Of a stretch of DNA of 64,000 nucleotides, positions 2,670 through 55,569 are shown one piece after another. The notes beneath the pieces are model-generated. The model saw only the letters and a program-made list of their open reading frames with translations. It searched no databases and had not been told where the DNA came from. This DNA comes from Hericium rajendrae (lineage: Eukaryota; Basidiomycota; Agaricomycetes; Russulales; Hericiaceae): contig CM065880.1 of the NCBI GenBank assembly GCA_033439255.1, forward strand, positions 2,418,001 to 2,482,000. Reading direction: 5' to 3'. The position numbers and the translations under genes were made by a program. The stretch's first letter is position 1; each line of letters begins with the position of its first letter.

Positions 2670-4010
2670 CTTATGATGACGTGCTCCTTTGCATGCCTTG
2701 CAACGACATCATCCACTTCCCTCTTCCTTGCCCGTCCTGCTCAGCTTCACCTCAGCTGCACCAAGTCTGCCCACCATGACGTTCATCTGAGAAAATGGAA
2801 ATTTATATAGCAACAAGTCCTATTATGGATCCTATGGGTAAGCTATAGATCCTATGTGGCTAAGCTATCCAGCTATGGAGAGCTATGGGAGCTATGGTAG
2901 TTATCATAGTATGTAGTGTCAAATACATAGGGTGACATAGCCTTCATAGCCAGGAGTGTCACATATATAGGATTATTATACTTAGTTAAGGAAGCTACAT
3001 GTACTATAGCTACTATAACCACTATCATAAGTCAGGTAGGCACACAAGACATGGAATCAAAATTGTATTATTTTCAAGGCTAGACTATGACAATGGGAGT
3101 ATGAACTCGAGCAGACTAGTAACTAAAGGTCCCGGTGTCGTCGGTTAATACATGCGCGTGGTCGCACATGGCCACGCGCGAGTCAGCGCAGTCGTGCGCG
3201 GCTGTGCGCACGTGCGCAGGATGGGCGGTCGTGTGGGCACCGTGTGCGGGGCGAAGCGTCGGGGCACGGGTCATGTGCGGGACGGGGCGGGATACGCGGG
3301 TCGTGCAGTGGCCTGCGCGCGAGCTGGCATGGCCGCGCGCGGACTCTGGACTGCGTGGTCACGAGCTTACATGCGGGAGCTGCCCGCGCCCTCGGTCCTC
3401 CCACGTGCCGTTGCGGGGAGGAGGGGGGAAGCGCACGTTCGCGGGGCTGGATGCAGTCACACACTCGCATGCGAGAGTGTATGCACGCGCTGGAGGCCAT
3501 TCGCCGCCTGCGCATGCAGTTAGGACCTCGCGCGGGCTTGCGACCGTGCGTGGCCGTGTGCGCCTTGCGTGGACATGCGTGGCACAGGCTAACGAGGCCA
3601 TTAGCGAGTGGCCGCGGGCTGTCGTTGATTGGCCGCGCGATGGCCAGCACACGCTGGCGTAGCCGTGCGAGGGCTGGTGCGCGCGTGGTCATGCGCAGTG
3701 CAAGGCGGAGCGGGCGGGTCGTGCTTGGCCGTGCGTGAACTTGCGTGGCTGTCTTGGAGACAGAGGCATCCTTGTAACCCATTATAAACCTGTACCAGTA
3801 ATAACAGGAGGGAAGGTTGCAAACTGTACCAATAATAAGGGAGGGTTCAGGACCCAATCTGAACCATTCAAATTGCTCATTATAAATCCAAAAAAAATCA
3901 TTATAAATATAATACAGTCTGGGCCGTACACTACTCGCTACGTGCGCTTAGCGTGCCTACTCAAGCGGCTCCGCTCGGCACCATCCACCGCCCTGCGCGC
4001 TTCCCGCCTC

Positions 4011-4135
4011 GGCTATGCGCATGCCGCCGCCCGTCCCGCCCGACCTCGGCTACGCGCATGCCGCCGCCCATCCCGCCCGACCTCGGTTACGCACACGCTG
4101 CTGCCCGCCTCGCCCGACCTCGTCAACGCACGCCG
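4011..4135 (+). repeat. 37-bp tandem repeat in M1
   Basis: About three copies of a 37-bp GC-rich unit beginning GGCTACGCGCATGCCGCCGC and ending CGACCTC, followed by shorter CGCACGCCGCTCGTT-type repeats to about 4300. The rest of 3960-4545 is similar GC-rich low-complexity DNA, open in several frames with no recognisable domain. Confidence 0.6.
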
Positions 4136-7023
4136 CCTGACCTCGGCTACCACGCTCGCTCGCATGCGCTTGCACCTGCCGCACGCCGCACGCCTCTCTT
4201 CCCCGCCGCATACCGCTCGCTCTCCGCCGCACACGCTCGTTCCTCGCCGCACGCCGCTTGTTCTCGCCGCACGCCGCTCGTTCCCCGCCGCCATCGCTCA
4301 CTCCCCGCACTGTTGCCGCGATGCGTGTCGTCAGCGCCGTTGGCGCTGCCGACGACGCCGCTGCTCATCGCGAGGGTGCATCGTGGACGTTGGGGGGCTG
4401 AGTGAGGGGGCCCGCGCGCCGTTGTTGTTGCGCGTAGGCAATGGGTATGCGACGCGGGGTGCTGGGCATGTGGTGCGGGTGCTGGGAGCCTGGCGCCATT
4501 GCTGGGGACGCGGGTCGTTGCTGGGGTGTGTGGGTTGCGGCTTGTGCATCTGAGAAAGTCCAAATTTATATAGCTATCAGCCATTATTATCTAAGCTACA
4601 TGAGCTATATACAAGTCTTATACAGATCTATAGATCTATAGTAGCTATATAGACTATATAGCTCTATATGCCACCTATGTATGCTATATAGCTCCTTAGC
4701 ATAGCTATGGGAACTATACACATGTCTCTGCATGCTATAGAGCCTATGTAACCTATGTCAAATATATTACCTTGTAAGGGTAAGCTATATGCTATGACAT
4801 CAATGAGATATACAGCAACTATACACATTATCCGAAGTATACATATGATGTAAGTCACACCAAGGTATAAGTCAAATCCATTTATTCATTTTCGTCATGA
4901 TTAAGTACAAAGTTACAAAAATCTAATTATGACTATGACGAGTGCCGGTGCCAGCGCCTGTTGACCGCACAGAGGGCGTAGGCGCGTGCGCGTGCGCGTG
5001 CGGGGTGGGGGGGATCGCGCGAGGGCGGAAATCGTGCGCGAGGGTGGGGATCGTGTGCGAGGACGGGGCGTGCAGGGTGGCGCGCGAGACCGTGGTGTTG
5101 GACACGGATACGGGGCATTCTGCGCGGGAGCAGGATGTTGAGCTACGTGCGCGGGATGTTGAGCGCGAGCGGGGCGAGGCGCGGGCGGGCGAGGCGTTTC
5201 GCGCACGCGATGGGCTTCAGGTGTGGATGCGGGTCATCGCGCGCGTTGCCGTCAACATGGGGCCGTGCGCGCACGTGGACGGGCGTTCATGCGGGCACGC
5301 GGGGTGTCAACTGGGCGTGCGGGGCGTTGTGCGTGCGCGGCAGTGCTGCGCAGGCGCGCGAGGGGTCGTGCAGGCGCGAGGGGCACCGAGGACCCGCGCG
5401 GGGCATTGGCCACGCGCGCAAGGGGTGTTCTGCACGCCCCCAGGGCCTTGAGCGAGCGTGCAGAGCGTTCTATGCGCGCGAAGGGCGTCAAACGGGCGCG
5501 CAGGGTGGTCGAGGGCGCGCGGGGGGCGGTGAGATGCATGGACAGGCGTGCTAGGCATAGTCACGCGCACGCCGGATGTCATGCACGCGCGCGCAGCCTG
5601 GAGTGCGCGCGTGGGGCCTTCATCTGAGAAAATGAAAATTTATATAGCAACAAGTCCTATTATGGATCCTATGGGTAAGCTATAGATCCTATGTGGCTAA
5701 CCTATCCAGCTATGGAGAGCTATGGGAGCTATGGTAGTTATCATAGTATGAAGTGTCAAATACATAGGGTGACATAGCCTTCATAGCCAGGAGTGTCACA
5801 TATATAGGACTATTATACTTAGTTAAGGAAGCTACATGTACTATAGCTACTATAACCACTATCATAAGTCAGGTAGGCACACAAGACATGGAATCAAAAT
5901 TGTATTATTTTCAAGGCTAGACTATGACAATGGGAGTATGAACTCGAGCAGACTAGTAACTAAAGGTCCTGGTGTCGTCGGTTAATACATGCGCGCGGTC
6001 GCACATGGCCACGCGCGAGTCAGCGCAGTCGTGCGCGGCTGTGCGCACGTGCGCAGGATGGGCGGTCGTGTGGGCGCCGTGTGCGGGGCGAAGCGTCGGG
6101 GCACGGGTCATGTGCGGGACGGGGCGGGATACGCGGGTCGTGCAGTGGCCTGCGCGCGAGCTGGCATGGCCGCGCGCGGACTCTGGACTGCGTGGTCGCG
6201 AGCTTACGTGCGGGAGCTGCCCGCGCCCTCGGTCCTCCCGCGCGCCGTTGCGGGGAGGAGGGGGGGAAGCGCGCGTTCGCGGGGCCGGACGCGGTCACAC
6301 ACTCGCATGCGAGAGTGTATGCACGCGCTGGAGGCCGTTCGCCGCCTGCGCATGCAGTTAGGACCTCGCGCGGGCTTGCGACCGTGCGTGGCCGTGTGCG
6401 CGCTTGCGTGGACATGCGTGGCGCGGGCTAACGAGGCCATTAGCGAGTGGCCGCGGGCTGTCGTCGATTGGCCGCGCGACGGCCAGCGCGCGCTGGCGTA
6501 GCCGTGCGAGGGCTGGTGCGCGCGTGGTCGTGCGCGGTGCAAGGCGGAGCGGGCGGGTCGTGCTTGGCCGTGCGCGAACTTGCGTGGCTGTCTTGGAGAC
6601 AGAAGGCGGTATGGCGGTCGAGCATGGGGCCGTGCGCGAGCTGGCGCAGTCGTGCGTGGCCGTGTGCGAGCTGATGATGTGGCCGTGCGCGCGCTCGTAT
6701 GGATCCGAAGGTCGCGAGCACATGCCCGCACCCTCCGTGCATGCGAGGGTGTGCCCACGCACGCGGAGCCTCAGTCCTCCTGCGCGCCGTTGCGGGGACA
6801 GGCGTGCAATCGCTGGGCCGGGCTTGGTCGTGCCTGGCGAGGCCATCCGCGGATGTGCTTGGCCGTGGGCGCCTAGCCACGTGTCGCGGCTGTGGGCTCG
6901 TTGTCGACGACGGGGATGTGCTGGTGCGCGGAGGTGGTGAGATGGTGGACCCTGTTGAGGGCATGCGCGGGTCGTTGAGGGGCTGCGAGGGCGCGAGAGG
7001 CCAGGCAAATGATGTCGTGCCCC

Positions 7024-7037
7024 GTCGCCATGGCAAC
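7024..7037. promoter_or_regulatory. RFX X-box-like palindrome (E2)
   Basis: GTCGCCATGGCAAC differs at one base from the perfect X-box GTTGCCATGGCAAC. It is extended by GTGCC/GGCAC arms. It lies about 125 bp from the hairpin at the splice acceptor, inside the GC-rich exon. Confidence 0.55.
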
Positions 7038-7161
7038 GAGGCACGACGACGCGAACGCAGACGGCGTCGTCGGGGGGACGGAGCGCTGCGGGCTCGTGGA
7101 TGTGGGCGCGAGGTCGAGGGGGAGGGGGGTGTAGCGCGCGCGGGTTGCGAGAAGGCAAACA

Positions 7162-7192
7162 CGAGTATCGCTCGTTGAACGAGCGATACTCG
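7162..7192. repeat. hairpin at splice acceptor (E2)
   Basis: A perfect inverted repeat of two 15-nt arms (CGAGTATCGCTCGTT) around one central base. On the minus strand it is the first sequence of the GC-rich exon, directly after the ACAG acceptor of the 7193-7236 intron. The same hairpin recurs in E1, E3, E4, E5 and E6. Confidence 0.75.
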
Positions 7193-7236
7193 CTGTGTTA
7201 GTACAAGAAACGAATGAAAGAGAGTTTTTTACTTAC
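7193..7236 (-). other. 44-nt intron upstream of GC-rich exon (E2)
   Basis: On the minus strand it starts GTAAGTAAAAAAC and ends TACTAACACAG, so donor, branch site and acceptor are all good fungal consensus. Introns of 43-46 nt sit at the same place in E1, E3 (8913-8955), E4 (24223-24267), E5 (50884-50929) and E6 (53966-54009). Called from motifs only; no transcript data. Confidence 0.6.
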
Positions 7237-7559
7237 CTATTAGCCCCCCAAGCCGTCTACTAAGCCCTTCCGAGTCTTGAAGACGCCGTGTATATGGAGA
7301 GAGAGGGAGACGAAGGAGGAGATGGAGGAAGTGTTGCAAAGACAGAAGTCGCGCAACGACTTCAGCCACAGCAGCATTCGACTCTCGCGTTTAGCGGTTT
7401 CGACTCTAACAAATCAAATAAAATCCATTTAATTCACGCAAAAAGTGGGAAGATATAGAACACCGGTAGAAATACAATGAATCAGCCATCTATGTAATTA
7501 CCATACAACACGCTCGCAGGTATGAAAATCCACTTAGTAGAATCTAACGGCCAGCCTCT

Positions 7560-7660
7560 GGCACGATGCCCGGCTATGCCCGGCCCGGTCTCGGCAAGCT
7601 GCATTTGACGCTCCGATCGCCACGTCTATATAAGACGTGCGCGACGCGCTTCCTCTCTCT
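7560..7660 (+). promoter_or_regulatory. divergent core promoter (E2), TATA box 7627-7634
   Basis: A GC-rich core with repeated GCCCGGC words is followed by TATATAAG and then a CT-rich leader (from 7648) typical of a fungal transcription start. Transcription to the right would enter the micro-exon ladder; transcription to the left would make the exon-intron-hairpin transcript. E1 has the same arrangement (TATA 14530-14537). Confidence 0.55.
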
Positions 7661-7728
7661 CCTCTTACCACTATCATCTCCCGTCTTTCGTCGCTCTCTC
7701 TTTTCCTGCCTCAACTCTCTGACGTTCG

Positions 7729-8000
7729 GTAAGTTGTTATACTGTTGCTATATTGTTTCATTGTTCACTAACCCTACTGTTCTTTATAGACTTCTACATT
7801 TTCGCTTTTATTATCTTAAGTAAGTCTTATGTTTTTTATATCTGTATCTTGTATACTAATTTGTTGACTTTGCCTTTAGATTATTTTCGCTTTTTCTTAT
7901 CTATGTAGTAAGTCTTATCTTATCTTACTTATCTATTCTTTTATCTTTCAGTTTTATCTTATCTCATCTTTGAATCTTATCTCATCTTATCTTGTATGTT
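7729..8000 (+). other. intron / micro-exon ladder (E2)
   Basis: Predicted introns at 7729-7789 (61 nt, branch CACTAAC) and 7820-7879 (60 nt) flank micro-exons 7790-7819 (30 nt) and 7880-7907 (28 nt). Both micro-exons contain TTTTCGCTTTT. Repeats of TAAGTCTTATC-type words follow to about 8000. The equivalent block in E1 is 14633-14930. The micro-exon lengths are not all multiples of three, so a coding role is doubtful. Confidence 0.5.
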
Positions 8001-8502
8001 TTGTTATCTTATCTTGAAGTGTTGGTTTTTGTAGTGTATTATAGATGTGTAGTGTCTGTAACTTTGTATTAAATTAAATGTGTTATAATTAAAATTTTTT
8101 GAAATATAATGCTTTTAAATTTTCGATGTTTTAAATGTTCTAGATGTAATAAGATTGGAATATATAATATATATGAGTATTTAAATATATTTTTAGTACT
8201 CTTAAGCAGCATACAAGACATAGGTGATATAGAGTAGATAGTAGCCCTACTAGCTAGACATGATATGATAACAGAGATATATTGCATAGCTGACATAGCT
8301 ATGATAGCCATTATATGCTATAGCAGCTATGAGAGCTATGATAGCTTATAGTCTATGCTATGATAGCTATGATGGCTATCATAGCTCTATATAGATAAAC
8401 TCACTACTATGGAGTAGCTATGTAGAAAAGAGGACTCCTATGGCCCTATCAGAGCTATGTAGGCTACATAGTGTCATATACCACTGGTCCTTTTCTCAGA
8501 TG
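8000..8502. repeat. AT-rich subterminal block with CTATAG palindromes (E2)
   Basis: No gene. From about 8210 the DNA is packed with ATAGC/GCTAT words in both orientations (TATAGCTATGATAGC and variants) up to the TTTTCTCAGATG terminus. Such subterminal palindromic words are typical transposase-binding regions in DNA transposons; that role is inferred here. Confidence 0.6.
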
Positions 8503-8888
8503 TTGAGCGGGCACGAGGGGCCTTGAACGGGCGCGTGGGGTGTTGAACACGCACGCGGGGTGTTGATCGAGTGCGCGGAGACGGGGCGATGACGTGGCCC
8601 GCGCGCACACGTCGTTGACGGCACGCAGACGGTACACAGATGGCGGGCATGGGGCGGGAGTGCGTATTCCGCCATCCTGCGCACATTGCTGTGGCGAAAG
8701 GCGGAGCGGGGGCGAGGGGTCATTTGGGGCTGCGGCCGGGCGTCGTGGCGTGTTGGAGTCACGCGCGGGACGTAGGAACTGCGGGTGAGGTGGGGACATC
8801 GCACAGATGGAGCGCGGAGGATGTAGTGGCGATATGGAGGGCGTGGAGGGGTCGTGGAGGGTCGAGGGAGGAAGTACAACGAGAGCAT
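8496..8888 (-). CDS. GC-exon open frame of E3, hypothetical Pro/Arg-rich protein
   Basis: A minus-strand frame of 130 codons opens in the hairpin and shares scattered residues with the same frame of E6: FLPRP, TTP, PTxHDxRPxPQ and NVRR occur in the same order. No known domain, signal peptide or membrane segment. It is cut at its far end by E2. Its ATG lies inside the hairpin because of a base change, so the real start is uncertain. It could equally be a non-coding exon whose DNA similarity gives the appearance of a conserved frame. Confidence 0.2.
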   Translation of the reverse strand: MLSLYFLPRPSTTPPRPPYRHYILRAPSVRCPHLTRSSYVPRVTPTRHDARPQPQMTPRPRSAFRHSNVRRMAEYALPPHARHLCTVCVPSTTCARGPRHRPVSAHSINTPRACSTPHAPVQGPSCPLNI

Positions 8889-8913
8889 CGCTCGAAAAAC
8901 GAGCGATACTCTC
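8881..8913. repeat. hairpin at splice acceptor (E3)
   Basis: Inverted repeat GAGAGCATCGCTCG / CGAGCGATACTCTC with a short A-rich loop and one mismatch. It borders the 43-nt minus-strand intron 8913-8955 (GTAAGC donor, CTAACAAAG acceptor). Confidence 0.7.
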
Positions 8914-9299
8914 TTTGTTAGTGCGAAAGCTGGAGAGATAATTTATTTTGCTTACCCGGTTATCCTCCGCCTGCTGCACAAGCCTTCAGCCTTCAAGATT
9001 GAGGACGATGGGCGAACGAGGGACGAGACAGCAAGGGAGCGAAGGAGATACGAGGAATGAGAGTGAGAGGGACAAATAATTATGAAGTCAACACGCGTTC
9101 GGTGCTTCAGCCACCGAACGAGCGAAGTTGCGTTGTTCGAGCCTCAACAAATCAAATAAAGTCGTATAAATTCAGAAAAAAAGGCAGCGATGACAGAGTA
9201 TACATTTAATCAGATTACATGAGACTACTATGGATATACTGCACCGTGAATCCCTGAGCGACAGCATCAACTTACTCAAGTCTGCCAGCCAGTCCCTCT

Positions 9300-9380
9300 C
9301 GGCAGCGCCCGGCAGCCACGATTCTCGGCTTCGCCCGGGATTCGTATATAAGGCTCGCGCGACGCGCCTTCCCTCTTGCT
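9300..9380 (+). promoter_or_regulatory. divergent core promoter (E3), TATA box 9345-9352
   Basis: Core CGGCAGCCACGATTCTCGGC, then GCCCGGGATTCG and TATATAAGG. CGATTCTCGGC and GCCCGGGATTCG are themselves a near inverted repeat. The same core is found in E4 (24640-24680) and, inverted, in E5 and E6. A leader rich in TCGTCG triplets follows (9405-9475). Confidence 0.6.
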
Positions 9381-9515
9381 CTTTAACCCCCACTATCTCG
9401 TGCCACGTCGACGCTGTCGTCGTTGTCGTTTGCTCGCTCGTCGTCGTTTGCTTCGTCGTCGTCGTCGTTCCCTCTGTCATCATCATTTCTTTCTCGTCGT
9501 TGCAATCTTTATAAG

Positions 9516-9800
9516 GTAAGCTTTTATTCTTTGTCTCTTATATCTTGTACTAATGTCTTCATATCTATTATGGTATCTTTGTATATTTACTAGGCAAGCT
9601 TTGTTATGTCTTGTACTAATGTCTTCATGTTGTTTTCAGATTTTCGCTTTTTTATTACTTTGGTAAGCTTTTATCTGTTATCTTTGGTATCTTCTAATAT
9701 TACTATTGTCTTTTTTTAATTAGATCTTCACTTTTTGTAGTCATTGTAAGTCTGTTTGTAGTTTTTTATATTGGTCTTAACTGATGTTTATATTTTTATA
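9516..9800 (+). other. intron / micro-exon ladder (E3)
   Basis: Predicted introns 9516-9639 and 9663-9723 surround micro-exons 9640-9662 (23 nt, ATTTTCGCTTTTTTATTACT...) and 9724-9745 (22 nt, ATCTTCACTTTTTGTAGTC...). Each intron has a GTAAG donor, a CTAAT branch word and a TTTCAG/TTAG acceptor. The region to 10300 is AT-rich subterminal DNA with ATAGCTAT words. Confidence 0.5.
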
Positions 9801-10300
9801 GAAGTTTTCTTTATATCTATCTTACATAATGTAGTGTAGTAATGTATCATGATATTGTGCTTAACTCTTGTTATGATGAATCTAATTGTGTTGTACTAGA
9901 ATGAAGCTTTATGTTCTAGTTAAGCTACAAATTTATATGATAAATGTATAATTTATAGATAGTACATAGTGAGCTAGTATAGTATGGACAAGGCAAGCTT
10001 TATAATGTACAGATAATACATAGTGAGCTAGCATAGTATATCTAATATAGACTTTGTAGTCTTTGTAGTAGAGTTAGACTACATAGCTCTTATAGCTAAG
10101 CCTATAGCTCTATAGTTATCATAGCTACCCTTGTAGCTCTATAGCTATCATAGCACTCTATAGCAGTCCCTAATAGCTATATAACACTATATAGACTAGG
10201 ACTCTCTATGGCCAGATATATACAAAAGAGGGTAGCTATGGAGCTATGCAACCTATATAAGATATAAAGCTCTCTATAGCTACCCGAAATTTCTCAGATG

Positions 10301-11804
10301 TGGGCCATGGGCCGTGGCTGGGCCGTCGCGGGTCTGTGCTACGCGTCGAGCAGACTGGCCACGCTGGGCCGTGCACGTCCTCCGCGTGCCCGTGCACATT
10401 CTTCCCGTGCTTGCGCGCGTCCTAACGCTCTGCGTACCGGTGCCGGAGTGCTGTGCGTTGCGCGCAGGGGTGTTGAGAGCCGCGCGGACGTGACATGCGG
10501 CATGTAGGGGTGCCGAGGACGCAATACGCGACGCGTAGGGGCCGGGCGGCTGCGCACGGTGTGTTGTCGTGGCCGTGAGTGCCTGCGCTGCGTGTGTACG
10601 ACCGCGGGTATCGGGTGCGCATCTGTGTCGTTGCACGCGTGTTCGTGCTGGTCCTGATCGACTTGCACGTGCTTCTATGCGTGTCCGAGGCACGTGGAAG
10701 AGGGCGGACGGCTGCTGGAAGCCGTGGAGGGCGTGGAGAGGCGTCCGGGAGGGCGGTGAATGGGTGGAAGCACGGGGAGCGGAGCGGAGTGGATACCGAG
10801 AGGTGCGAGGGGCGCAAAGAGCACGGAGATGCGCGTGAGTGCGAGGGTGAGAGAGTGAGGAGAATGAGTGCGAGGGCTAGGGAGTGAGGCGAGCCGCATA
10901 TGTGCTGTGATGCGTGCTGTGATGCGGCTCGGAAACTGCCGAGAATCGGCGACTGAGACCGAGGTGCCCGACGCTGGAGGAGGGGTGTTACCCCGCATGA
11001 CTTCTGGAATGTCTTCCCCATGATTGGAGAGATTATTATGTACCTATAGTATAACACATTGTATATACAAATTTTCGAATGATTTAGAGAATAATTCGAG
11101 CCACATTGAACGACTTATTGTAACCCTATAGTAACCCTAACTCGAATTCATGTAGCAGAGGCTTCACTTCGGAAACTCTTACCTATCTAGCTGTGCGGAA
11201 TCGTTTTTGATGCCCTCAATAATGTGTGTACGAGATTTGGAATTTTTTAGACTCGATCCCAGAGCTTGAGGCCCGAGATACGCACAAAATACAGCTCATG
11301 GAACCGAAAGTTCACGTATATTGCCAGATCCTAAACATCTATGCCACTTAAAATTACAATAAAGTCTAAGTACATTCGTTATATATATTTTAGTGCACTG
11401 TAATAAACCGATGCAGCATGGGAGCACGTTGCGCTGCACAATTGCAGCTCGAATCTTGTGCCCGGCGTGCCCGAGGCATCGATTCGAGCTTGACGCGTTT
11501 AGTCTTTATGCACATTTTAGACTTTCTTATCAATGGCTTGGGATTTTCTTTCCTCCATTGCATTCTTTCCTTACCAAACTTTGTATTTCATTGTATTCAT
11601 ACTATCTACACACTAGTTATTATTTCTACGGTTTAAGTAAATTTAGTTGTTCTTAAAATCCCTCTTCGACGACTTGGGACGAGGTACGTCGCCTAATTCG
11701 GCAACTTCCGAACCGTGCCACAATCTTGTTGGCCGAGGCTATCTCTGTTCCCTCCCTCCCTCAAGCGGGGCGCAGTAGTACGAGGCTCAATAGCCTCATA
11801 CCTC
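10301..11804. other. M1 right arm: GC-rich block and AT-rich spacer
   Basis: 10301-10990 is GC-rich low-complexity DNA continuing 3960-4546 on the other side of E3. 10990-11400 is AT-rich with no gene. 11425-11510 contains a GC-rich near-palindromic core (TCGAATCTTGTGCCC... CATCGATTCGAG) followed by CT-rich leader DNA, resembling the promoter core of the CATCTGA elements but without TATATAAG. Confidence 0.4.
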
Positions 11805-11865
11805 GTAAGTTCTTCTTTTCTTTTCTCCCATGTATATCTTTACTAACGAAGTTCGATTCCTTCAG
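11805..11865 (+). other. 61-nt intron upstream of the M1 GC-rich exon
   Basis: Donor GTAAGTTC, perfect TACTAAC branch site at 11841-11847 and acceptor TTCAG. It immediately precedes the C-rich block 11866-13270. The unrelated insertion M1 thus repeats the promoter, intron and GC-exon plan of the CATCTGA family. Confidence 0.5.
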
Positions 11866-13270
11866 CCTTGTACCGCGATGACGTGGCACGCTGCACGCAC
11901 CATGACGCCTCTGCCGCTCATCTACCCACTTCCATCGCGCTTCCAAACGCGCGTGCGACGACTCCCCGCGCCATGAAGGTGCAGTCGCCGGTGCACAAGA
12001 CCCCGCGTTCACAATCGCGCGCCGTCAAACTCACCCGAAGGCACGCGTGTACCAGCCCCCTGCCAGCCCCGTGCCCTGCGTCCCAACCCCGAGTCCCCGT
12101 GCGCCTCCCAGCCCCGCGCACCGTCCCACCACCATGACCGTATGCCCCAGCATCGCGCCCGCACCTCCAGCCCTGCACCTCCCAGCCCCACACCTCCCAG
12201 CTCAGCGTGTCCCAGCCCCACACCTCCCAGCCCCGCGCCCGTGCACCCCAGCGCCGTGACCCTGCATCCAAGCCCCCCGCATCCCAGCCCAGAGTCCCCG
12301 CGTCCATCTCCAGTCCCCGCGCGCCGTCCCCGAGATCCCGCGCGCATCTCCGAGCCCCCGCGCGCCATCCCCGAGCCCCCGCGCGCCATCCCTGAGCCCC
12401 CGCGCGCCGTCTCCAGCCTCCACATGCCTGTCTCCAGCCACCCCGTACCGTCTCCAGTCCCCCGCGCCGTCTCCAGCTCCCCCACGCCGTCTCCAGCTCC
12501 CCCGTGCCTGAATTCAGCCCCCTCGCGCCGTCTCCAGCCCCCGCGCGCCGTCTCCACCCCGCGCGCGCCGTGCCCATCCCCGCACACGCCGTCCCAGCGC
12601 CGTGCCCGCGCGCGTCCCAGCTCCACGCGTCTCAGCCCCCAGCCCCGTCTGCGCCATCCCAGCACCGCGGCCGCGCGCTGCAGCGTTGTGCCCGCGCTCT
12701 CCACCCCGCGTCCAGCCCGGTTCCCACACCCGCGATCCCAGTGCCGGGCCCACGTGCTCCAATGCCGAGCCCGCGCCCACGCACCAGCCCGAAGCCCGTG
12801 CTTCAGCACCGTCCCCGTGCGTCCCAGCCCTGAGCCCGCTCCACCCCGGCACCCGTGCGTGAATTCCGCCCGCGCACTCCACACGCGGGAGCCATCGGCG
12901 GTGCGCGGCGGACGTGCGGCGAGCGTAGGGGATGGTGCATGTGCGTGTACCAACCGCAGCGTGCATGCTCTGCAGCGGGCGTGCGGCGAACAGCGCGCGC
13001 AACCTGCGTGCAGCGCGTGCATAACCGTGTGGCGAGAGTGGGAACGGTATGTGGTAGGCGCCGGGGAGCGAGAGGGAAAGCGCGCGTGAAAGCGCCGGCA
13101 AGCGCGCGTGCAGCGCCGGTGAGCGCGAGGGAAAGCGCTGGCGAACGCGGGAGGAAGCACCGGCGAGCGCGGGAGGAAGCGCCGGCGAGCGCGAGGGGAA
13201 GCGCCGGCGAGCGCGAGGAAACACAAAGACAAGCGCCGGTGAGCGCGTGTGGAAGCGCCGGCGAGCCATA
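11866..13270 (+). repeat. C-rich then G-rich degenerate tandem repeats (M1 exon)
   Basis: 11866-12860 is built from degenerate CCCAGCCCCGCGCACCGT and TCTCCAGCCCCCGCGCGCC units. 13080-13270 is a second array with unit GAGGGAAAGCGCCGGCGAGC of about 30 bp. A 315-codon frame is open at 12142-13089, but other frames on both strands are open too, so the openness reflects composition. No domain is recognisable. Confidence 0.55.
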
Positions 13271-13926
13271 GGTAGTAATAGTAGCCGAGATCCTTAAGAT
13301 CTCGGCCAATATGTTTTTTTAAGAATATAATATGTTTTTTTGATATGTTGTACTATGAAAAACATATTCTATGCAAAACATATAAAGTTCCAAACATTGC
13401 ATTTAGCCCGAAAATACTCTTTATAGTGTTACTGGTACAGTTGGAACCCTCCCTCCTATTATTACTGGTATAGGTTGCAACTGATCTACAGGGTCTGGTG
13501 GGAGACAGAAGGCAGTATGGCGGTCGAGCATGGGGCCGTGCGCGAGCTGGCGCAGTCGTGCGTGGCCGTGTGCGAGCTGATGTGGCCGTGCGTGCGCTCG
13601 TATGGATCCGAAGGTCGCGAGCACATGCTCGCACCCTCCGTGCATGCGAGGGTGTGCCCACGCATGCGGAGCCTCAGTCCTCCTGCACGCCGTTGCGGGG
13701 ACAGGCATGCAATCGCTGGGCCGGGCTTGGTCGTGCCTGGCGAGGCCATCCGCGGATGTGCGTGGCCGTGGGCGCCTAGCCACGTGTCGCGGCTGTGGGC
13801 TCGTTGTCGACGACGGGGATGTGCTGGTGCGCGGAGGTGGTGAGATGGTGGACCCTGTTGAGGGCATGTGCGGGTCATTGAGGGGCTGCGAGGGCGCGAG
13901 AGGCCGGGCAAATGATGTCATGCCCC

Positions 13927-13940
13927 GTCGCCATGGCAAT
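13927..13940. promoter_or_regulatory. RFX X-box-like palindrome (E1)
   Basis: GTCGCCATGGCAAT, the counterpart of the E2 site at 7024-7037, at the same distance from the hairpin. Confidence 0.5.
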
Positions 13941-14064
13941 GAGGCACGACGATGCGAATGCAGACGGCGTCGTTGGGGGGACGGAGCGCTGCGGGCTTGT
14001 GGATGTGGGCGCGAGGTCGAGGGGGAGGGGGGTGTAGCGCGCGCGGGTTGCGAGAAGGCAAACA

Positions 14065-14095
14065 CGAGTATCGCTCGTTGAACGAGCGATACTCA
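14065..14095. repeat. hairpin at splice acceptor (E1)
   Basis: Same 31-nt inverted repeat as E2 with one terminal base changed. The divergent promoter follows, with TATATAAG at 14530-14537, then the micro-exon ladder 14633-14930 and subterminal block to 15417. Confidence 0.7.
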
Positions 14096-15417
14096 CTGTG
14101 TTAGTACAAGAAACAAATGAAAGAGAGTTTTTTACTTACCTATTAGCCCCCCAAGCCGTCTACTAAGCCCTTCTGAGTCTTGAAGACGCCGTGTATATGG
14201 AGAGAGAGGGAGACGAAGGAGGAGATGGAGGAAGTGTTGCAAAGACAGAAGTCGCACAACGACTTCAGCCACAGCAGCATTCGACTCTCGCGTTTAGCAG
14301 TTTCGACTCTAACAAATCAAATAAAATCCATTTAATTCACGCAAAAAGTGGGAAGATATAGAACACCGGTAGAAATACAATGAATCAGCCATCTATGTAA
14401 TTATCATACAACACGCTCGCAGGTATGAAAATCCACTTAGTAGAATCTAACGGCCAGCCTCTGGCACGATGCCCGGCTATGCCCGGCCCGGTCTCGGCAA
14501 GCTGCATTTGACGCTCTGATCGCCACGTCTATATAAGACGTGCGCGACGTGCTTCCTCTCTCTGCTCTTACCACTATCATCTCCCGTCTTTCGTCACTCT
14601 CTCTTTTCCTGCCTCAACTCTCTGATGTTCGGTAAGTTGTTATACTGTTGCTATATTGTTTCATTGTTCACTAACCCTACTGTTCTTTATAGACTTCTAC
14701 ATTTTTGCTTTTATTATCTTAAGTAAGTCTTATGTTTTTTATATCTGTATCTTGTATACTAATTTGTTGACTTTGCCTTTAGATTATTTTTGCTTTTTCT
14801 TATCTATGTAGTAAGTCTTATCTTATCTTATTTATCTGTTCTTTTATCTATTCTTTTATCTTTCAGTTTTATCTTATCTCATCTTTGAATCTTATCTCAT
14901 CTTATCTTGTATGTTTTGTTATCTTATCTTGAAGTGTTGGTTTTTGTAGTGTATTATAGATGTGTAATGTCTGTAACTTTGTATTAAATTAAATGTGTTA
15001 TAATAAATTTTTTTTGAAATATAATGCTTTTAAATATTCGATGTTTTAAATGTTCTAGATGTAATAAGATTGAAATATATAATATATATGAGTATTTAAA
15101 TATATTTTTAGTACTCTTAAGCAGCATACAAAACATAGGTGATATAGAGTAGATAGTAGCCCTACTAGCTAGACATGATATGATAACAGAGATATATTGC
15201 ATAGCTGACATAGCTATGATAGCCATTATATGCTATAGCAGCTATGAGAGCTATGATAGCTTATAGTCTATGCTATGATAGCTATCATAGCTATGATAGC
15301 TCTATATAGATAACCTCACTACTATGGAGTAGCTATGTAGAAAAGAGGACTCCTATGGCTCTATCAGAGCTATGTAGGCTACATAGTGTCATATACCACT
15401 GGTCCTTTTCTCAGATG

Positions 15418-15669
15418 TCTCTATCGCTCCCTTTGCCTTCAATCGCTCCCTCTGCCTTCCCAACGATGCCACAAACGCCCCCTGCTGCCTGCGCGCACAA
15501 CCCCAACATCTCACGCTCAAACCTCCCCATTACCAGCACCCCGGTACGCCCTTTCGCGTGCACAGCCACGAGTTATACACCCATGGTGCTCCATGCCCTC
15601 TGCGTGCTGTCAAGGATGTGCGCATGGGCCATGTCATGGCCCATGCCCTCGATGTGCACATGCCGTTGA
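15418..15669 (+). CDS. E0 frame conserved with E4, hypothetical
   Basis: In one frame the translation reads PSAFPTMPQTPPAA, then NPN, then FACTATSYT and HALCVLSRM. The corresponding E4 frame (minus strand, 24100-23900) reads PSAFPTTPPTPPAA, NPN, FACTATDYT, HAVCALSMM in the same order. Many differences between the two DNAs fall at third codon positions and are silent (for example CCT/CCC, TCC/TCT, GCT/GCC, TTT/TTC, TAC/TAT), which suggests past selection on a protein. No known domain or catalytic motif. The start is unknown because E1 interrupts the exon at 15417. Confidence 0.3.
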   Translation, partial: SLSLPLPSIAPSAFPTMPQTPPAACAHNPNISRSNLPITSTPVRPFACTATSYTPMVLHALCVLSRMCAWAMSWPMPSMCTCR

Positions 15670-15693
15670 GTCCCGTTGCCATGGCAATGGGAC
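15670..15693. promoter_or_regulatory. RFX X-box-like palindrome (E0)
   Basis: GTTGCCATGGCAAT at 15675-15688 is one base from a perfect X-box and is extended to a 24-bp palindrome by GTCCC/GGGAC arms. Confidence 0.6.
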
Positions 15694-16805
15694 CCAGTCG
15701 TCCTCCCTTCACGCTCGCCACATCTCAAGCAACCCCACTGGACCCTCGCCACATCCCCCCGCTGTGCCCCAGCTTCATGAACAGCTCCAGCCCACAGGAT
15801 CCATGCCCCACGCACTCACTGATGCTTTGCAACGCCCTGCGCTGGCAGCCCACATCTTGCATGTGTGCACATTGCCTCAAGCATGCAGCACACCCAGGAC
15901 ACGCGTGCAATGCTCCGGCTGCTCGTGCAATGTTGCGCATTCACGCACCATGACCAGCTCACATGCAGAATGCCTCGGACATGTGCACCATGGCCAGCCT
16001 GCGTGCGCAACAACCCTGGCACACGTTCCATGTCCAGCATGCATCCTCAATGTCCCACCCACCTGTTCAACGTCTTGCGTGCATGCAGGATCCCTCTCTC
16101 ACATACAGAATCCCTCACACACACACAAATGCCCTGCACATGCACCACAACACTCTGCACCCCACACGCCCGCACAGCCGCCCCTGCATATGCAGAACAC
16201 CCCATGCATGCAGAATGGTGCATGCGTGACAACACCCCACATCTGTGCCAACATCCCGCATCTGCATGCACACATGCACCATGCCCACTCAACACCCTGC
16301 ACGCCCAATAAGTGCCTTCACATGCACACGCACAATGCTCGCTGCACATGCAGCATGCCGGCGTATGCATCCTCACCTGCGCCTATGCCCTTTGTGCTCA
16401 ATAGGTGCCGGTGACTTAGTTAGATTATCTTTTACTTCTATAATTAGTTAAGACCGAAAATAATTTAATTTGATTTGACTCATGCTGTTGTGTGACTTAT
16501 ATAATCTCTATATTCTGGATAATGGGTATAATGCTTGTATATCTCATAGATGCTATAGCATATAGATTATACTTACCAGGTGATATAGGTGACATAGGTT
16601 ATATAGGCTCTATAGCAAGTAGGAACATGTCTATAGCTTTCATAGCTATGCTAACTAGCTATGTAGCCCTATATAGATGACATATAGAGCTATATAGTCT
16701 ATATAGCTGCTATAGACCTATATATCTGTATAAGTCATATATATAGCATCTCATAGCATAGATAATTATGGCTGATGGCTATATAAATTTGGGATTTTTC
16801 AGATG

Positions 16806-37338: not shown

Positions 37339-37343
37339 CTTAT

Positions 37344-38029
37344 ACTAATGTCTTCACATTGTCTTGTAGGTTTTCGCTTTTTTGTTAGTTTGGTAAGCTT
37401 TTATATATTATCTTTGTTATCTTCTAATATTAATATCTTCTTTTTTTCCTAGAAAATTTTGCTTTTTTGTAGTAATGGTAAGTCTTATAGTGTTTCATAT
37501 TAATCTTGACTAATGTTCATGTTATTTTAGAGTTTTAAATATTTAGTTTGTTGTGTTATATATTGTTGTAGTGTATTATCATGTTGTAATTAGTCAATAA
37601 AATATCTTGCTCTTCTTTATCTTTTGTGTGATCTTTGTGAATGGTTTATTTTATCAATATGTAGATATTTATAAAGTCATATGAAGTCTAGTATGACTAT
37701 AAATTCCAATTAAAACATTGTAGTCTATCAAAAATATATAGAGTACTCAGCTAATTGTAACCACCAGAGCATTTATGACATCTGTAGCAAATATATTCTG
37801 CATAATGTGTATAGTGAATGTATTCTATATACCTACTCTCATAGCTTTATAGCTATGTCTTGTAGCTCTATAGCTATCATAGCACTCTATAGCTATCCTA
37901 AGTAGCTCTATAGCACTCTATAGATGACCCCCTTCTATGGCCATCTATAGAATAGGTGGCATAGCTATGGCCCTATGACATTTATATAATCTATATAGAG
38001 CTCTATAGCCATGTGGATTTTCTCAGATG
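37344..38029 (+). other. E4 micro-exon ladder (continued) and right subterminal block
   Basis: Micro-exons at 37370-37392 (23 nt, GTTTTCGCTTTTTTTGTTAG...) and 37453-37477 (25 nt), separated by the 60-nt intron 37393-37452. From 37850 CTATAGCT/AGCTATAG words accumulate up to the TTTTCTCAGATG end. The ladder started at 24841; gypsy landed inside its first intron. Confidence 0.5.
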
Positions 38030-49605: not shown

Positions 49606-50476
49606 CATCTGAAAAATTTGCAGGTCCTACATAGTTCTACATATCTTATATAGAAGTCATAGGCCCATAGCACCTCCCTTTACTACATAGCCCTCATAGC
49701 TCAAAGGGAGAGCTATGAAGTGCTATGAGATGCTATAGAGCTGAAGGGGGTGCTATGAACTACTATCATGACTATCATAGTTAACTATGAAGCTATCATA
49801 GGGTGCCTAGCTATTAAATCTATCAGAGCTATATTACCTACTTATGCTATACTCAATATATAAACTTAGCACATCTATCAAAGTAATAAGATTTATTAGA
49901 ACTATCTAAACTATCAAATTTTTGGTCTAACTATAAAGCAAATCTTATATTCATCATTAATACTGAAAGATCATATCAAAACATTATTTTATAAGTGATT
50001 ATTTAAATTTCATATTATATTAATCAGTCTAATATATTACAACATGATAAACTATTATAATCTAATAATAGACTTGATAATTTACAACAATATGCACTCA
50101 CAGCTCAAAAAGATAACAAATTAATGAAACCTACCTTTATCAAAAAAGCAAAAATCTATTAATCAAAGATATTAGATAACAAAGATGTAGAGACAAAGAA
50201 AGTAAAAAGATCAGCCCACCTTTACTTGAGAAGATAACAAAGATATAGATAGAGGGAACATTAGTAAAGAACATAGAACATTTAACTAAAGTCAACACAC
50301 CTTAAAGATAATTGGGCAAAGAAACAACGAGCAAAGAAAGAACAACGACGAGCAAAAAAATAACAACGACGAGCAAAGAAGGAGCAACGGCGAGCAAGCA
50401 ACAATGACAATGACGACGCCGACGTGGCGAGAGATGGTGGGTGTTAGAGAGCAAGAGGCAATGTGCGTCGCGCGAG

Positions 50477-50540
50477 CCTTATATACGAATCCCGGGCGAA
50501 GCCGAGAATCGTGGCTGCCGGGCACTGCCGAGCGCCGCGC
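50477..50540 (-). promoter_or_regulatory. divergent core promoter (E5), TATA box 50478-50485
   Basis: Minus strand: CACGATTCTCGGCTTCGCCC, GGGATTCG, TATATAAGG, as in E3 and E4. Confidence 0.6.
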
Positions 50541-50925
50541 CAGAGGCTAAGTGATAGATTTTGTTAACTTGTGTTTGCTGCTCAGTAGCGCACAGTATAT
50601 TAGTTAGACAAGTAGCACATACAATCGAATGGTATGAAAAAGTTATACGTAGTATCTTTTTTTCTGAATTATAACGATTTGATTTGATTAATGAAGTTCG
50701 AAACATTTGAACTCGCGCTTTCGATCGCTCAAGCACTAAGGCGCGTCGTTCGACTTGTCCTTGTTCTCACTCAGTCCCTCGACAGCTCCCCCTCGTCTCT
50801 GCACCCCGTTTTCCTCCTCCTTCCCCTTGCTTTTTGTCACCCCGAAGATCGGCAGGATCGGTAAGAGGTTCAAAGGGCTCAAGGTAAGTAAAAAAAATCT
50901 GTATTCGTGCTTCTCGTACTAATTC

Positions 50926-50960
50926 CGAGAGTATCGCTCGGATAACGAGCGATACTCTCG
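50926..50960. repeat. hairpin at splice acceptor (E5)
   Basis: CGAGAGTATCGCTCG and CGAGCGATACTCTCG, perfect 15-bp arms with a 5-nt loop. The intron 50884-50929 (GTAAGTA donor, CTAAT branch) ends at its first bases. Confidence 0.75.
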
Positions 50961-51960
50961 TTGTTACTCGTTCTTTCGTGCCTCCACGCCCCCATCGCCG
51001 CCCTTTCCCCATTCCCGTCCTCCTCGCATCTTCGCCGCATCCATCCCCCGCATCGCTGTCGCGTCGCCGCAACACGCGACGTTCTCTGCGTGTGGCTCCG
51101 ACGCCCCCGGTGTCACCTCAACCTCCCGCGCATGGCTTCAGCAGCCCGCGCCTGCTCTCGCGCCCGCCGGTGTCTGCCCTCCACGCCGAGCACGCCCTCC
51201 ACGCCGCCCTAACGGTCCACACACCTTCTCAACAACCCCACATGGCCAGGACAACGACACGACAACGACTATCGGGTCTCGTTGCCGTGGCGACGAGACT
51301 CGGTGTGTCGTGCTGCGCCCCTGCGCTCGTTTCCCGCACCCTGCGCACCGTATCTACGTCCTCCGCGCGGCCTCCGCACCCTCGCACACCCTCTACGCCG
51401 TCCGCGTAACCTCTGCGCCGTCCACGCACTCTCCACGCCGTCCGCGCACTCTTCACGCCGTCCGCGCCGCCTCCACGCCATCCGCGCCGCCTCCACGCCA
51501 TCCGCGCATCCTCCACGCCTTCCGCGCAGCCTCCTTGCCCTCCGCGCAGCCTCCTGCCTTCCGCGTCACCTCCCTGCCTTCCGCGCCGCCTCAACGCCGT
51601 CCGCGCCACTCCACGCCTTCCCCGCTGCCTCCATGTCTTTCGCGCCGCGTCCTCGCCCTCCGCGCTGCATCCCCGCCCCCTGTTCCACATCCACGCATTC
51701 CGCGCCGTCATCCCGCCCTCTGCGCCGCCTCCCCGCCCTCTGCGCTGCGTCCACGCGCTCCGCGCCGTTCAGCGCCGTGGCTTCGCCTCTCCGCACTCCT
51801 CGCCGCTTCTCCGCGCTCTGCGCACCTCGCGCACGTCGTCATCTACGCGCGACTATAATGCCACGTGCACGGACCCCAGGAGCCTGTACGCGACCCCGCC
51901 GTCGCAGATAGGGTGTTGACGCCACGCGCACGGCATCAATACCGCGCGCGCGACATCAGT
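50961..51960 (+). repeat. GC-rich exon of E5, degenerate CGCGCCGCCTC tandem units
   Basis: From 51350 to 51830 the exon is a degenerate tandem array with unit close to CTCCACGCCGTCCGCGC (about 18 bp). Long frames are open on both strands (for example 51282-51911), so I do not call a protein. Confidence 0.55.
51276..51299. promoter_or_regulatory. RFX X-box-like palindrome (E5)
   Basis: GTTGCCGTGGCGAC at 51281-51294 inside a GTCTC/GAGAC-armed palindrome. Confidence 0.5.
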
Positions 51961-52337
51961 AGCCCACGCATGGCCGCCACATGATTGCAGCATCATGGCT
52001 GCCTGGATTATGTTTTTAATTACATTTTCGTAGATAGATGCCTTGTACCAATCATGACTCTGATATAATAAAAATAAAAATTTTGACTTCTAATTATGGA
52101 GTCTACCATATCTGACATAGGGCTGATAGAGTCCATAGCAAGGCTATGATAGTACATAGCTCTGATAGTAATGGCTTACAGGTACATAGGTCTATATACC
52201 TTCTGCCTGCTGCTATGAAGGCTATCATAGTGTGCATAGCTCTGTATAGATGCAAGGGTGACTATATAGATCCCATAGCACTATGCTAGGACACATACTT
52301 TAGTACTGAGCTATATAAAATTCTAATTTTTCAGATG

Positions 52338-52547: not shown

Positions 52548-53009
52548 CATCTGAGAAATTTACTACTGGTATATAAGGCTATGTTGACTATATAGCTTTC
52601 CTAGGTCCATAGCTGTCCTCTTTTATACATAGCAGTCTCATAGCAGTCAAGCAATCTATGCTAAGCTATCATAGCTTGCCATAGCTGCCATAGCATAAGG
52701 CATAAGCTATTATAGCTACTGTAGCTACCATAGCATAGAGCATAAGCTATCATAGCTGACCTAGCCATTGTAGTATAGGATAACTATAAAAGCTATGCCA
52801 ATTATATGTGATATGTCTATCATGATATTATATCTAGCTAATATGGTTTATATTTACTCTATATTATCTCTATCAGATATGTTATTTTAGCACATAACAG
52901 AAAAATACTACAAGCCTAATAACCATGCTCTAAAGTCACAAACATCGAAAAGTGAGAAGCATTATTTATTTCATGTAATTTTATTACATAATGTTACTAT
53001 ACTACAAAG

Positions 53010-53290
53010 ATTACCAAACAACTATAGAAGATAATAAATTTACAATGACTGCAAAAAGCGAAAATATAAACATAAAAAGAAGATACTAACATTAGAACAT
53101 AACAAAGATGATAACAAGAGAAAGAAACTTACCAAACTGACAAAAAAAAAAGCGGAAACCTACAAGGCAATACAAAGACATCAGTGTTAAGATATGACAC
53201 TTACCTAGTAAGCCTACAAAAGTACTGTAACGAAGTACAAAGTCATTAGCATTAGACATGAGAGAAAGAATAAACACATACCTTAACGGA
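53010..53290 (-). other. intron / micro-exon ladder (E6)
   Basis: On the minus strand a GTATGT donor at about 53283 follows GCCATCTCCGTTAAG. A micro-exon at 53133-53159 (27 nt, GTTTCCGCTTTTTTTT...) lies between a TTGTAG acceptor and a GTAAG donor. Another TTTTCGCTTTTTGCAG unit follows towards 53050. Confidence 0.45.
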
Positions 53291-53552
53291 GATGGCGACG
53301 ACGAGGAAGCAACTGACGACAACGACGAGGGAGCGACTGACAACGTTAAGAGAGCAGGCGATGACGTTGAGAGAGCGTGGCGACGAATGAGGGAGTGACG
53401 ACGAATGAAGGAGCGACGACAGCGAGCGACGATGACGAGTGAGTGACGACGACGAGAGCGAAGACGACGACGACGAGCGAGCGACGACGTGTCGACGTGG
53501 CAAGAGATTGGTGGGAGTTAAAGAGTAAGAGATAATGCGCGTCGTGCATGCC

Positions 53553-53625
53553 TTATATACGAATCCCGGCCGGAGCCGGGATTTGTGGTTGCCGGGCGCT
53601 TGCCGAGAGTCGCATCAGAGACTGG
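53553..53625 (-). promoter_or_regulatory. divergent core promoter (E6), TATA box 53553-53560
   Basis: Minus strand: CCGGGATTCG then TATATAAGG preceded by GCCGGGCGCTTGCC words; a slightly diverged version of the E3/E4/E5 core. Confidence 0.55.
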
Positions 53626-54009
53626 GCGCCAGACTTAATTAGATAGATTTCGCTACCTAGGGATGCAGCGTGTAGTACATAGCTTGAAGCCTCATTGCTT
53701 TTAGTTGTATGTACAATAGATAGCTTTCTCCTTTTTCATCTAATTTATGCGATTTTATTCGATTTGCGGGGGCTCGAAAACCAATGCTTCGCTCGTTCGG
53801 TGGCTGAAGCACCGAACGCGCTTCGACTTCGACAGTTCATCCCATACTCTGTCTCTCGTCCCTCCTCGTTGTCCTCTCCGTTCCCTCGCCACTCCCTCCA
53901 CTATTCTCTCCGAGGTCATCAAACTCGAAGGTCGGGGGGCTTAGTAGTAAGTAGAGGGCCTCGAGGTAAGTAAAAACAACTTCTCTTCGTCGTTTCTGCA
54001 CTAATACAG

Positions 54010-54040
54010 AGAGTATCGCTCGGTTTTCGAGCGATACTCT
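54010..54040. repeat. hairpin at splice acceptor (E6)
   Basis: AGAGTATCGCTCG / CGAGCGATACTCT, perfect 13-bp arms with a 5-nt loop, starting at the first base after the CTAATACAG acceptor of intron 53966-54009. Confidence 0.75.
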
Positions 54041-54042
54041 CG

Positions 54043-55365
54043 ATGCGCTTCCTCCCTCGACCCTTCACGACCCCTTCATGCCCTCCACGACCTCTTCGCG
54101 CCCTCCGCGCCCACGCCGCGCCCTTCTCGTCCTTCCACGCCATGCCGACGCCCCCGCTCAGCCCGCGCACGACTCCAACACTGCACGACACCCGCCCGCG
54201 ACCTCAAACGACACGCACGGCCCCCGTCCCGTCTTTCGCGCAGACCAACGTGCGCAGGGCCGTCAGCCACGTACGCACACCCCACGCACGCTGCCTGCGC
54301 GCTATCAACGCGCGTCGTAGAGTCCCGCCGTTGCCGTGGCAATGGGACTCAAACGTCGCCCCATTTGCGATCGCTGTGCCTCAACACCCAGCGAGCCTCC
54401 CCGTGCACCATCGCCACTTCCTTACGCCTCACGTCTCCGCCCCACGCCCCGCACGCGCGCGCTCAATGCCCTCACGCCCGCACGACATCCTGCAACCCAG
54501 GCAACGTCTCTCAGCGCGCAGACACCAGGATACGACCGTGCATGGCCCGCACGACCCCGATAACGTGTGCAGGCCGTGTACGGCCCCATCAACGCCCCGC
54601 CCGCCTGCCTCGCGCGCAGATCTGCTATCACGCACGGGTCTGTCGTGTCATACACGGCCTCCGGCCTTCTGCACCTTGCGCACGCGCCCGCCGCACTTCA
54701 ACCCCGCACGCGCGGACCTCTTGCCTCGCGCCCGCCCGCCCCGCCTCGTGCACCCCGCCACGTCTCGTGCACGCTCGCCACGCCTCGTATACGCCCCAAT
54801 GCATCGTGCCCGGCACCTGTATCCCCGCACACGCCTCAACCACACCCGCCGCGCCCCGCGCACGCCTCCCGCGTGCCCCGCGCCCATCCCTCGCGCCTCA
54901 CGCACGGGATCGCCGTCCGCGCACCTTGTCCACACCGTACACACCCGCTGCAGAATGGCGCCCGGCGCGCGGGACTCCGCGCCTCGCGCACGAACCCTAC
55001 GGCTCCGTACGAGCCCGCGACAGCCTCGCGCATGGATCCCGGGCCCCGCGTTTCCCCGCGCGCAGGCCCGCTCTATTCTGCACGTGCTTGGCTTCGCGCG
55101 CGACCATCGCGCCTCGCACGCAGAAGTGCCGTGTCGCGCACATCAGCCGCGTGTACGCACCTTGTCACGCCCCGCGAGCGCGCGTGCCGGCCTGCCTGTG
55201 CACGCCGCGCGTGATGTAATATACTCGATTGTACTTGTAATAACAATGAATATAATCAAGTTTGTTCTGGAATCTTTCGTACCTACCAGACTTCTAATAG
55301 TAATCATAGCTCACCTGACTAAGTATGATAATGCTATAGAAGCTATGATAGCATCATATAGCTGA
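54043..55365 (+). CDS. GC-exon ORF of E6, 440 aa, hypothetical Pro/Arg/Ala-rich protein
   Basis: An ATG three bases after the hairpin opens a 440-codon frame through the whole GC-rich exon and into the AT-rich subterminal block. Composition is Pro, Arg, Ala, His and Thr throughout, with no recognisable domain, signal peptide or membrane segment until a hydrophobic C-terminus encoded by AT-rich DNA. The first ~80 residues share FLPRP, TTP, PTxHDxRPxPQ and NVRR with E3. Stop codons are improbable at this GC content and other frames are also open (for example 54365-55219), so the length alone is weak evidence. It may be a real element-encoded protein or a structural exon. Confidence 0.3.
   Translation: MRFLPRPFTTPSCPPRPLRALRAHAAPFSSFHAMPTPPLSPRTTPTLHDTRPRPQTTRTAPVPSFAQTNVRRAVSHVRTPHARCLRAINARRRVPPLPWQWDSNVAPFAIAVPQHPASLPVHHRHFLTPHVSAPRPARARSMPSRPHDILQPRQRLSARRHQDTTVHGPHDPDNVCRPCTAPSTPRPPASRADLLSRTGLSCHTRPPAFCTLRTRPPHFNPARADLLPRARPPRLVHPATSRARSPRLVYAPMHRARHLYPRTRLNHTRRAPRTPPACPAPIPRASRTGSPSAHLVHTVHTRCRMAPGARDSAPRARTLRLRTSPRQPRAWIPGPAFPRAQARSILHVLGFARDHRASHAEVPCRAHQPRVRTLSRPASARAGLPVHAARDVIYSIVLVITMNIIKFVLESFVPTRLLIVIIAHLTKYDNAIEAMIASYS
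54321..54349. promoter_or_regulatory. RFX X-box-like palindrome (E6)
   Basis: GTTGCCGTGGCAAT at 54330-54343 with AGTCCC/GGGACT arms, about 280 bp past the hairpin. Confidence 0.55.
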
Positions 55366-55569
55366 CACTACCAGCTATGGAAGCTATGATAGCATCATAT
55401 AGCTGGCACTATCAGCTATGAAAGCTATGGAAGCCCTCATAGCTCTACATAGCTGGATAAGCAAACTTCATAGCTCTAATAGCTCAATGATAGCACCTAT
55501 AATGTAACCTGCAGCTATATAAAATTCAGATTTCTCAGATGACCTCATTGTCAGCTGGACCTGCATGGG

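Follow-up and report, generated by a model that had tools for sequence, protein, structure and literature searches.

The genome of Hericium rajendrae carries a large family of non-autonomous cut-and-paste DNA transposons. A CACTA-like (CMCT) enzyme, most likely one of the PlavakaB kind, probably mobilises them in trans. The family is real, high-copy and, judging by sequence identity, recently active, and its mechanism appears ordinary. What sets the family apart is that it has retained a non-coding core with structure.

Both ends of the family were searched for in the whole genome (46.8 Mb, 19 contigs). The A end (CATCTGARAAA-N8-TTATATAG) has 545 matches at up to two mismatches versus two for the reversed control. 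The B end, the continuation of which is unlike that of the A end, has 615 matches at up to one mismatch versus none for the control. A chance origin of the family termini is excluded by these counts. The share of the family in the genome is estimated at ~3%, from ~2.9 kb multiplied by 545 ends. The pairing of A and B ends took in 89 of 100 listed A ends (545 in all) and 96 of 100 listed B ends (615 in all), on contigs C1-C3; rows from C4 were left out. Among the matches listed for these contigs, 66 of the 89 A ends have a facing B end no more than 16 kb away, versus 23/89 for the wrong-side control and 19/89 for the same-strand control over the same range. The genome search for paired ends that had been proposed in the initial annotation gave 48 pairs spaced 2.6-3.5 kb among the 66 listed, and 17 spaced more than 4 kb, some of which are nested mis-pairings.

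The A and B ends differ in sequence and each element is therefore oriented. E1 to E4 run from A to B on the plus strand, E5 and E6 run from A to B on the minus strand, and both half elements (ending at 2103 and 16805) terminate in A ends. The features of the window, which is the whole stretch of 64,000 nucleotides that was analysed, are listed in Table 1.

Table 1. Family copies, core features and associated sequences in the window.
Feature	Position	Strand	Remarks
Partial copy, A end	2077..2103	-	end match
E1	2784..15417 (2784-3764 + 13510-15417)	+	2889 bp; flanks TT/TC, no TSD match
Insertion inside E1, not family	3765..13500	.	9-bp duplication GGAGACAGA at 3756-3764 and 13501-13509
E3	4547..10300	+	2870 bp without E2; TSD TG
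E2	5621..8502	+	intact, 2882 bp, inside E3; TSD TT
Partial copy, A end at 16805	15418..16805	-	abuts E1 right end; left limit inferred
E4	22578..38029	+	~3.05 kb once LTR retrotransposon set aside; TSD AA
E5	49606..52337	-	2732 bp, A end at 52337; TSD CA
E6	52548..55541	-	2994 bp, A end at 55541; TSD AC
E2 intron-like segment then hairpin	7163..7238	-	hairpin 7164-7190
E3 intron-like segment then hairpin	8881..8957	-	one G-U pair
E1 intron-like segment then hairpin	14066..14141	-	hairpin 14067-14093
E5 intron-like segment then hairpin	50883..50957	+	hairpin 50930-50956
E6 intron-like segment then hairpin	53965..54039	+	hairpin 54012-54038
E2 TATA-box motif	7627..7646	+	towards B end
E5 TATA-box motif	50479..50495	-	towards B end
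E6 TATA-box motif	53553..53569	-	towards B end
Relict transposase-like pieces	55607..58594	-	proposed in the initial annotation as mobiliser

All 14 termini reported in the initial annotation were found at their coordinates, and the dinucleotides that flank the elements match in five of the six (E2-E6; E1 has TT/TC). The six copies had been described as complete. Their ends are genuine, but E1 and E4 are interrupted by foreign insertions and the two ends of an element are not equivalent. E1 had been given as one element of 12.6 kb and is actually a much shorter one, split by the insertion with the 9-bp duplication. Both E1 pieces are 97% identical to E2. The insertion holds E3 and E3 holds E2, which makes four nesting levels with E1. 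Without E3, the insertion consists of ~4 kb of unrelated DNA with CTGTACCAGTAATAANAGGAGGG-like repeats at both ends. By the length of its target duplication it looks Mutator-like. E4 is split by an LTR retrotransposon of 12.4 kb (24941-37338) that has 99.5% identical LTRs and CTTAT on both sides. This retrotransposon has reverse transcriptase, RNase H, integrase zinc-binding and chromo domains, and the 1229-aa ORF beside its pol has no Pfam match. Elsewhere in the window, an 884-aa ORF with an RVT_2 (Copia-type) reverse transcriptase domain lies at 19857-22511, and interleaved tandem-repeat families (units of ~29, 76, 143-144 bp and longer) lie at 58400-64000.

The 2-bp target duplication (TSD) of variable sequence described for the window also holds outside it. 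A 2-bp TSD is present in 21 of the 26 A-B pairs overall, a tally that combines the window (5/6), the fetched loci (17/20) and one copy on C7, with E2 counted once. The fetched loci that miss the TSD are L005, L007 and L015, and one nested mis-pair in L001 was left out of their count. The L015 pairing probably joins an end to a neighbouring element, as does that of L026, and the dinucleotide match of L026 may be due to chance. The C7 copy, which was read across two loci, also misses (flanks GA/TT). A 3-bp TSD was found in none of the 20 fetched-locus pairs. The duplicated dinucleotides seen are TT, TG, AA, CA, AC, CT, GC, TC, GA, and AT. The TA-specific Tc1/mariner and TTAA-specific piggyBac transposases are rejected as mobilisers because the TSD sequence is free, as had been argued from the window copies.

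Five dispersed copies are 98.9-99.6% identical and have different flanks. L005 and L007, which have no TSD, belong to this set and are 99.4% identical to each other. The search for empty sites that had been suggested gave one for E2 in the paralogue L018, across a single TT, where the local alignment is gappy. With E2 removed, E3 and L018 can be aligned over their full length, at 80% identity. The C7 copy sits inside a Plavaka copy of which L039 is the counterpart without the C7 copy; the target TT is present in L039, with two extra bases (GA) on one side.

The elements exhibit the same order of base composition: an AT-rich A end, a GC-rich zone and an AT-rich B half. The GC content of the GC-rich zone is ~0.7 in four of the five profiled elements and 0.62 in L018. 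AGCTAT/CTATGA-type hexamers crowd the outer 300 bp of both A and B ends (638 were counted in the 32 ends of 16 elements; shuffled sequences gave 17 on average and 34 at most).

The core shared by many diverged copies consists of GTAAG[TC], 43-51 nt, and then a hairpin (GAGTATCGCTCG-loop-CGAGCGATACTC) with a stem of 12-14 bp. A CTAAY-like branch site and an AG often lie between GTAAG[TC] and the hairpin. The intron survey comprised 17 core rows and the hairpin survey 26 rows that represent 22 distinct hairpins. The hairpin is present in 15 of the 20 loci L011-L030 and in five of the six window elements, and it was not found at the search thresholds in E4, L011, L019, L020, L021, and L023. L010 has one candidate intron without a clean AG. 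A sister copy (L012 2440-5135) has the same hairpin core with CATCAG-type instead of CATCTG-type ends. The hairpin palindrome occurs at 112 places in the genome at up to two mismatches versus none for the control, and at all 50 places among the matches listed the stem is perfect, whereas the loop varies. The hairpin arms have a mean identity of 92% versus 47% for the adjacent intron, a figure biased by the search rule (up to three mismatches per arm). In the stem alignment, 304 of 312 cells pair. Three stem positions show compensated two-sided changes (in L014, L022, and L026). The other stem changes are one-sided, and seven of these break a pair (one of the seven appears in the rows twice). 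The folds of four window hairpins have z of -4.8 to -7.8. Rfam gave only three weak matches in 49500-55600, far under the gathering score.

A TATA motif that faces away from the hairpin is present in the five window elements scanned (E2-E6) and in 16 of the 20 loci L011-L030. The core would be a predicted promoter region, and the A-ward RNA would be spliced just ahead of the strong hairpin. Short repeated TTTTCGCTTTT segments were seen by eye in the B halves of E2, E3, and E6 (e.g. 7700-7950 and 9500-9780). Their position between GTAAG-like and AG-like signals suggests several tiny exons and introns of a B-ward transcript.

No transposase was recognised in the family copies examined, and the elements are apparently non-autonomous as the initial annotation had claimed. 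The longer relative with the same ends and a transposase that it had asked for was sought among the listed A-B intervals, where PF18759 (Plavaka) has no match in 66 and PF02992 has no match in the 17 that exceed 4 kb. Ten ORFs of 158-284 aa from E1-E6 have no Pfam match, nor do the other scanned ORFs of the GC-rich zone, including one of 440 aa in E6. The 613-aa ORF of a 5.3-kb copy (L023) was rejected as a captured host gene since its 112 genome matches mark it as repetitive; its only kin found among 8000 candidates scored are three Hericium alpestre proteins. The PIF1-helicase ORF of L027 is taken as part of a nested Helitron-like insertion.

The zone from the hairpin to the A end is variable among copies and holds a host gene fragment in one of them. 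This copy (L017, 3304 bp) contains a 545-bp piece that is 87% identical to C15:157890-158441, its sole other genomic match, which means that the sister copy L016 is without the piece. The piece retains the intron of the parental locus and reads as a putative exon-intron-exon of a Snf7-like host gene; its 67-aa translated part has no Pfam match. Sequence of non-TE origin that lies between the TIRs and can be traced to a parental locus, as in Pack-TIR elements (PMC8277862), was found in L017 only. The family differs from Pack-TIR, Pack-MULE and Pack-CACTA elements in that one captured fragment has been identified and most cargo zones are GC-rich DNA.

The copies may be replacement or deletion derivatives of an extinct or unseen autonomous element, a reading that we hold possible but short of probable, where the core is the old 5' region of the transposase gene kept by recent descent. 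Predicted introns and a TATA box are normal gene features, young copies exist, and no transposase-bearing copy occurs among the 66 listed intervals, all of which this reading would accommodate. However, the hairpin recurs elsewhere in subfamilies that are ~70-80% alike, next to an intron with the (biased) identity given above, its stem changes are compensated, and the 50 listed stems are perfect with varied loops. Because the core is kept in diverged copies with nothing recognisable encoded, we think that it serves the element (in expression, chromatin state, RNA stability or as a cis signal) and is not a leftover transposase promoter. A more specific proposal, which we put forward tentatively and regard as rather doubtful, is that this protein-less family retains a unit that is functional as RNA or in cis, made of a divergent promoter and an A-ward miniature intron that ends at a structurally conserved hairpin.

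Regarding the mobilising enzyme, the TSD size, the free target sequence and the CA..TG ends indicate the CMCT clade. We commit to a Plavaka-like CMCT enzyme that would act in trans, and do not name the exact enzyme. This transposase would recognise CATCTGARAAA and the subterminal repeats, cut both element ends and insert the element at a 2-bp staggered cut. In the portion of the source available, CMCT elements mostly have CA..TG ends and 2-5-bp TSDs, and PlavakaB elements have CATCA..TGATG ends and 2-3-bp TSDs (PMC12730594). The family resembles PlavakaB in its CATC.. ends and variable 2-bp TSD (2 bp in the 21 pairs above, where PlavakaB has 2 or 3 bp), and a Plavaka group in this genome ends in CATCTGGAAAAA. 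The family differs from PlavakaB in that the copies examined have no transposase, most ends are CATCTG (T for A; CATCTG..CAGATG versus CATCA..TGATG), and the Plavaka ends tested showed no AGCTAT-type arrays. One PF18759 element here also ends in CATCTG.

The genome has 132 segments that match PF18759 (123 of 166 candidates scored). Plavaka group X ends in CATCTGGAAAAAGTGTTTTTTGA in four copies, with an end CATCTGGAAAAAGTG of the CATCTG type. Three of its copies are ~100% identical over 779 bp, and the flanks of three differ just outside CAGATG. From such identity, Plavaka X appears recently copied in the host genome. A C48-protease-like gene lies upstream, and the left end of Plavaka X was sought upstream and not reached. 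Plavaka group Z ends in ..GCTGATG. Ends that start with CATCAGGAAAAAGTG share ~67-75% of the Plavaka X subterminal DNA; close relatives thus switch between CATCTG and CATCAG. The likeness of ends was assessed as the best match to 27 distinct A ends compared with shuffles that keep CATC or CATCTG. The Plavaka X end is more like the A ends than the shuffles (p 0.0009 keeping CATC and 0.006 keeping CATCTG), the Plavaka Z end is so more weakly (p 0.007 and 0.016), and a MITE end has no excess likeness to the A ends (p 0.42 and 0.54). Plavaka X and the A ends have the first six bases and the pattern of A/T runs in common. The last 300-600 nt of Plavaka X have 0-1 AGCTAT-type motifs and thus lack the family subterminal repeats, so that its enzyme is a candidate for the cognate one. 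The nearest proteins to one Plavaka transposase and to the repetitive ORF are from Hericium alpestre and Dentipellis.

Two other kinds of ends were observed. Inverted pairs of CATCAGGAAAAAGTGTTTTTTGA ends lie 14-15 kb apart at C9:1470233-1485258 and C2:1810067-1824229, and are possibly large Plavaka-like elements. Genuine palindromic MITE-type elements of 211-222 bp, with CATCAG inverted-repeat ends and 2-bp duplications, are located in Plavaka loci (L033 2622-2832, L034 3227-3448, and L038 1259-1480).

CACTA/EnSpm elements and their internal-deletion derivatives have CA..TG ends, short TIRs, subterminal repeat arrays and, typically, 2-3-bp TSDs. The family is similar in its CA..TG ends, its short TSD, and the short TIR and subterminal arrays at both ends, and differs in that its ends are not CACTA/CACTG. 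An EnSpm/CACTA (PF02992) transposase instead of Plavaka is nonetheless an unlikely mobiliser. PF02992 has 31 genome matches, some of them beside family ends. One of these (C2:4510991) lies 19 bp from the B end C2:4510972, yet beyond that end and not within the element, and PF02992 is missing from all 17 listed intervals above 4 kb. Furthermore, fungal EnSpm elements have CAC..GTG ends and 3-bp TSDs in the portion of PMC12730594 available, which are absent in the family (CATC and 2 bp).

The initial annotation had proposed a Plavaka-type enzyme such as the relict beside E6 as the mobiliser. A CACTA/Plavaka-like enzyme remains the most likely class, given the CATCA..TGATG ends of PlavakaB, but the relict itself is a most improbable mobiliser. 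It adjoins E6 and its pieces look transposase-like by eye, the C-terminal piece resembling Plavaka (KLHxLVH..FG..TExxE), and the Plavaka-type label may be right at a distance. Against this, four of its pieces have no Pfam match, PF18759 reports nothing there (123 of 166 candidates scored), one piece has nine genome matches including itself, and CATCWGARAAA ends were not found around its three closest relatives, for each of which 9.9 kb was examined. Least credible is that the ends are internal to a larger known element or a segmental duplication, as the dense nesting in the window and the 17 of 66 listed pairings above 4 kb might suggest; this is refuted for the examined copies by TSDs at the ends, ends that bound units with a peak at 2.6-3.5 kb, near-identical copies that have different flanks, and the empty site.

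The family is similar to MITEs in its high copy number, its non-coding nature and its reliance on the transposase of another element. It differs from MITEs, which are short (less than ~600 bp), in being ten times longer (2.6-3.3 kb), not palindromic and in having a structured core. Among the listed papers that mention Plavaka, no title or abstract opening has such a family, and the papers listed for fungal non-autonomous non-coding families and Hericium TEs had nothing on point.

Non-autonomous elements are usually taken to need their ends only. The findings in this work suggest that the non-coding middle does something for these elements, where promoter, intron-like signals and hairpin are preserved in many diverged members of the family. 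A family that has over 500 ends of either type and a preserved core is a natural test of whether passengers have functional non-coding parts. The recently copied CATCTG-ended Plavaka in the same genome makes the little-studied Plavaka reaction testable, and L017 represents a host gene fragment captured by a CMCT-like element in a fungus. If the reading of the core as an RNA or cis unit is true, these passenger elements would have their own function, e.g. evasion of silencing or a signal to the borrowed transposase, and the family would be selfish DNA with RNA, not protein, as its product.
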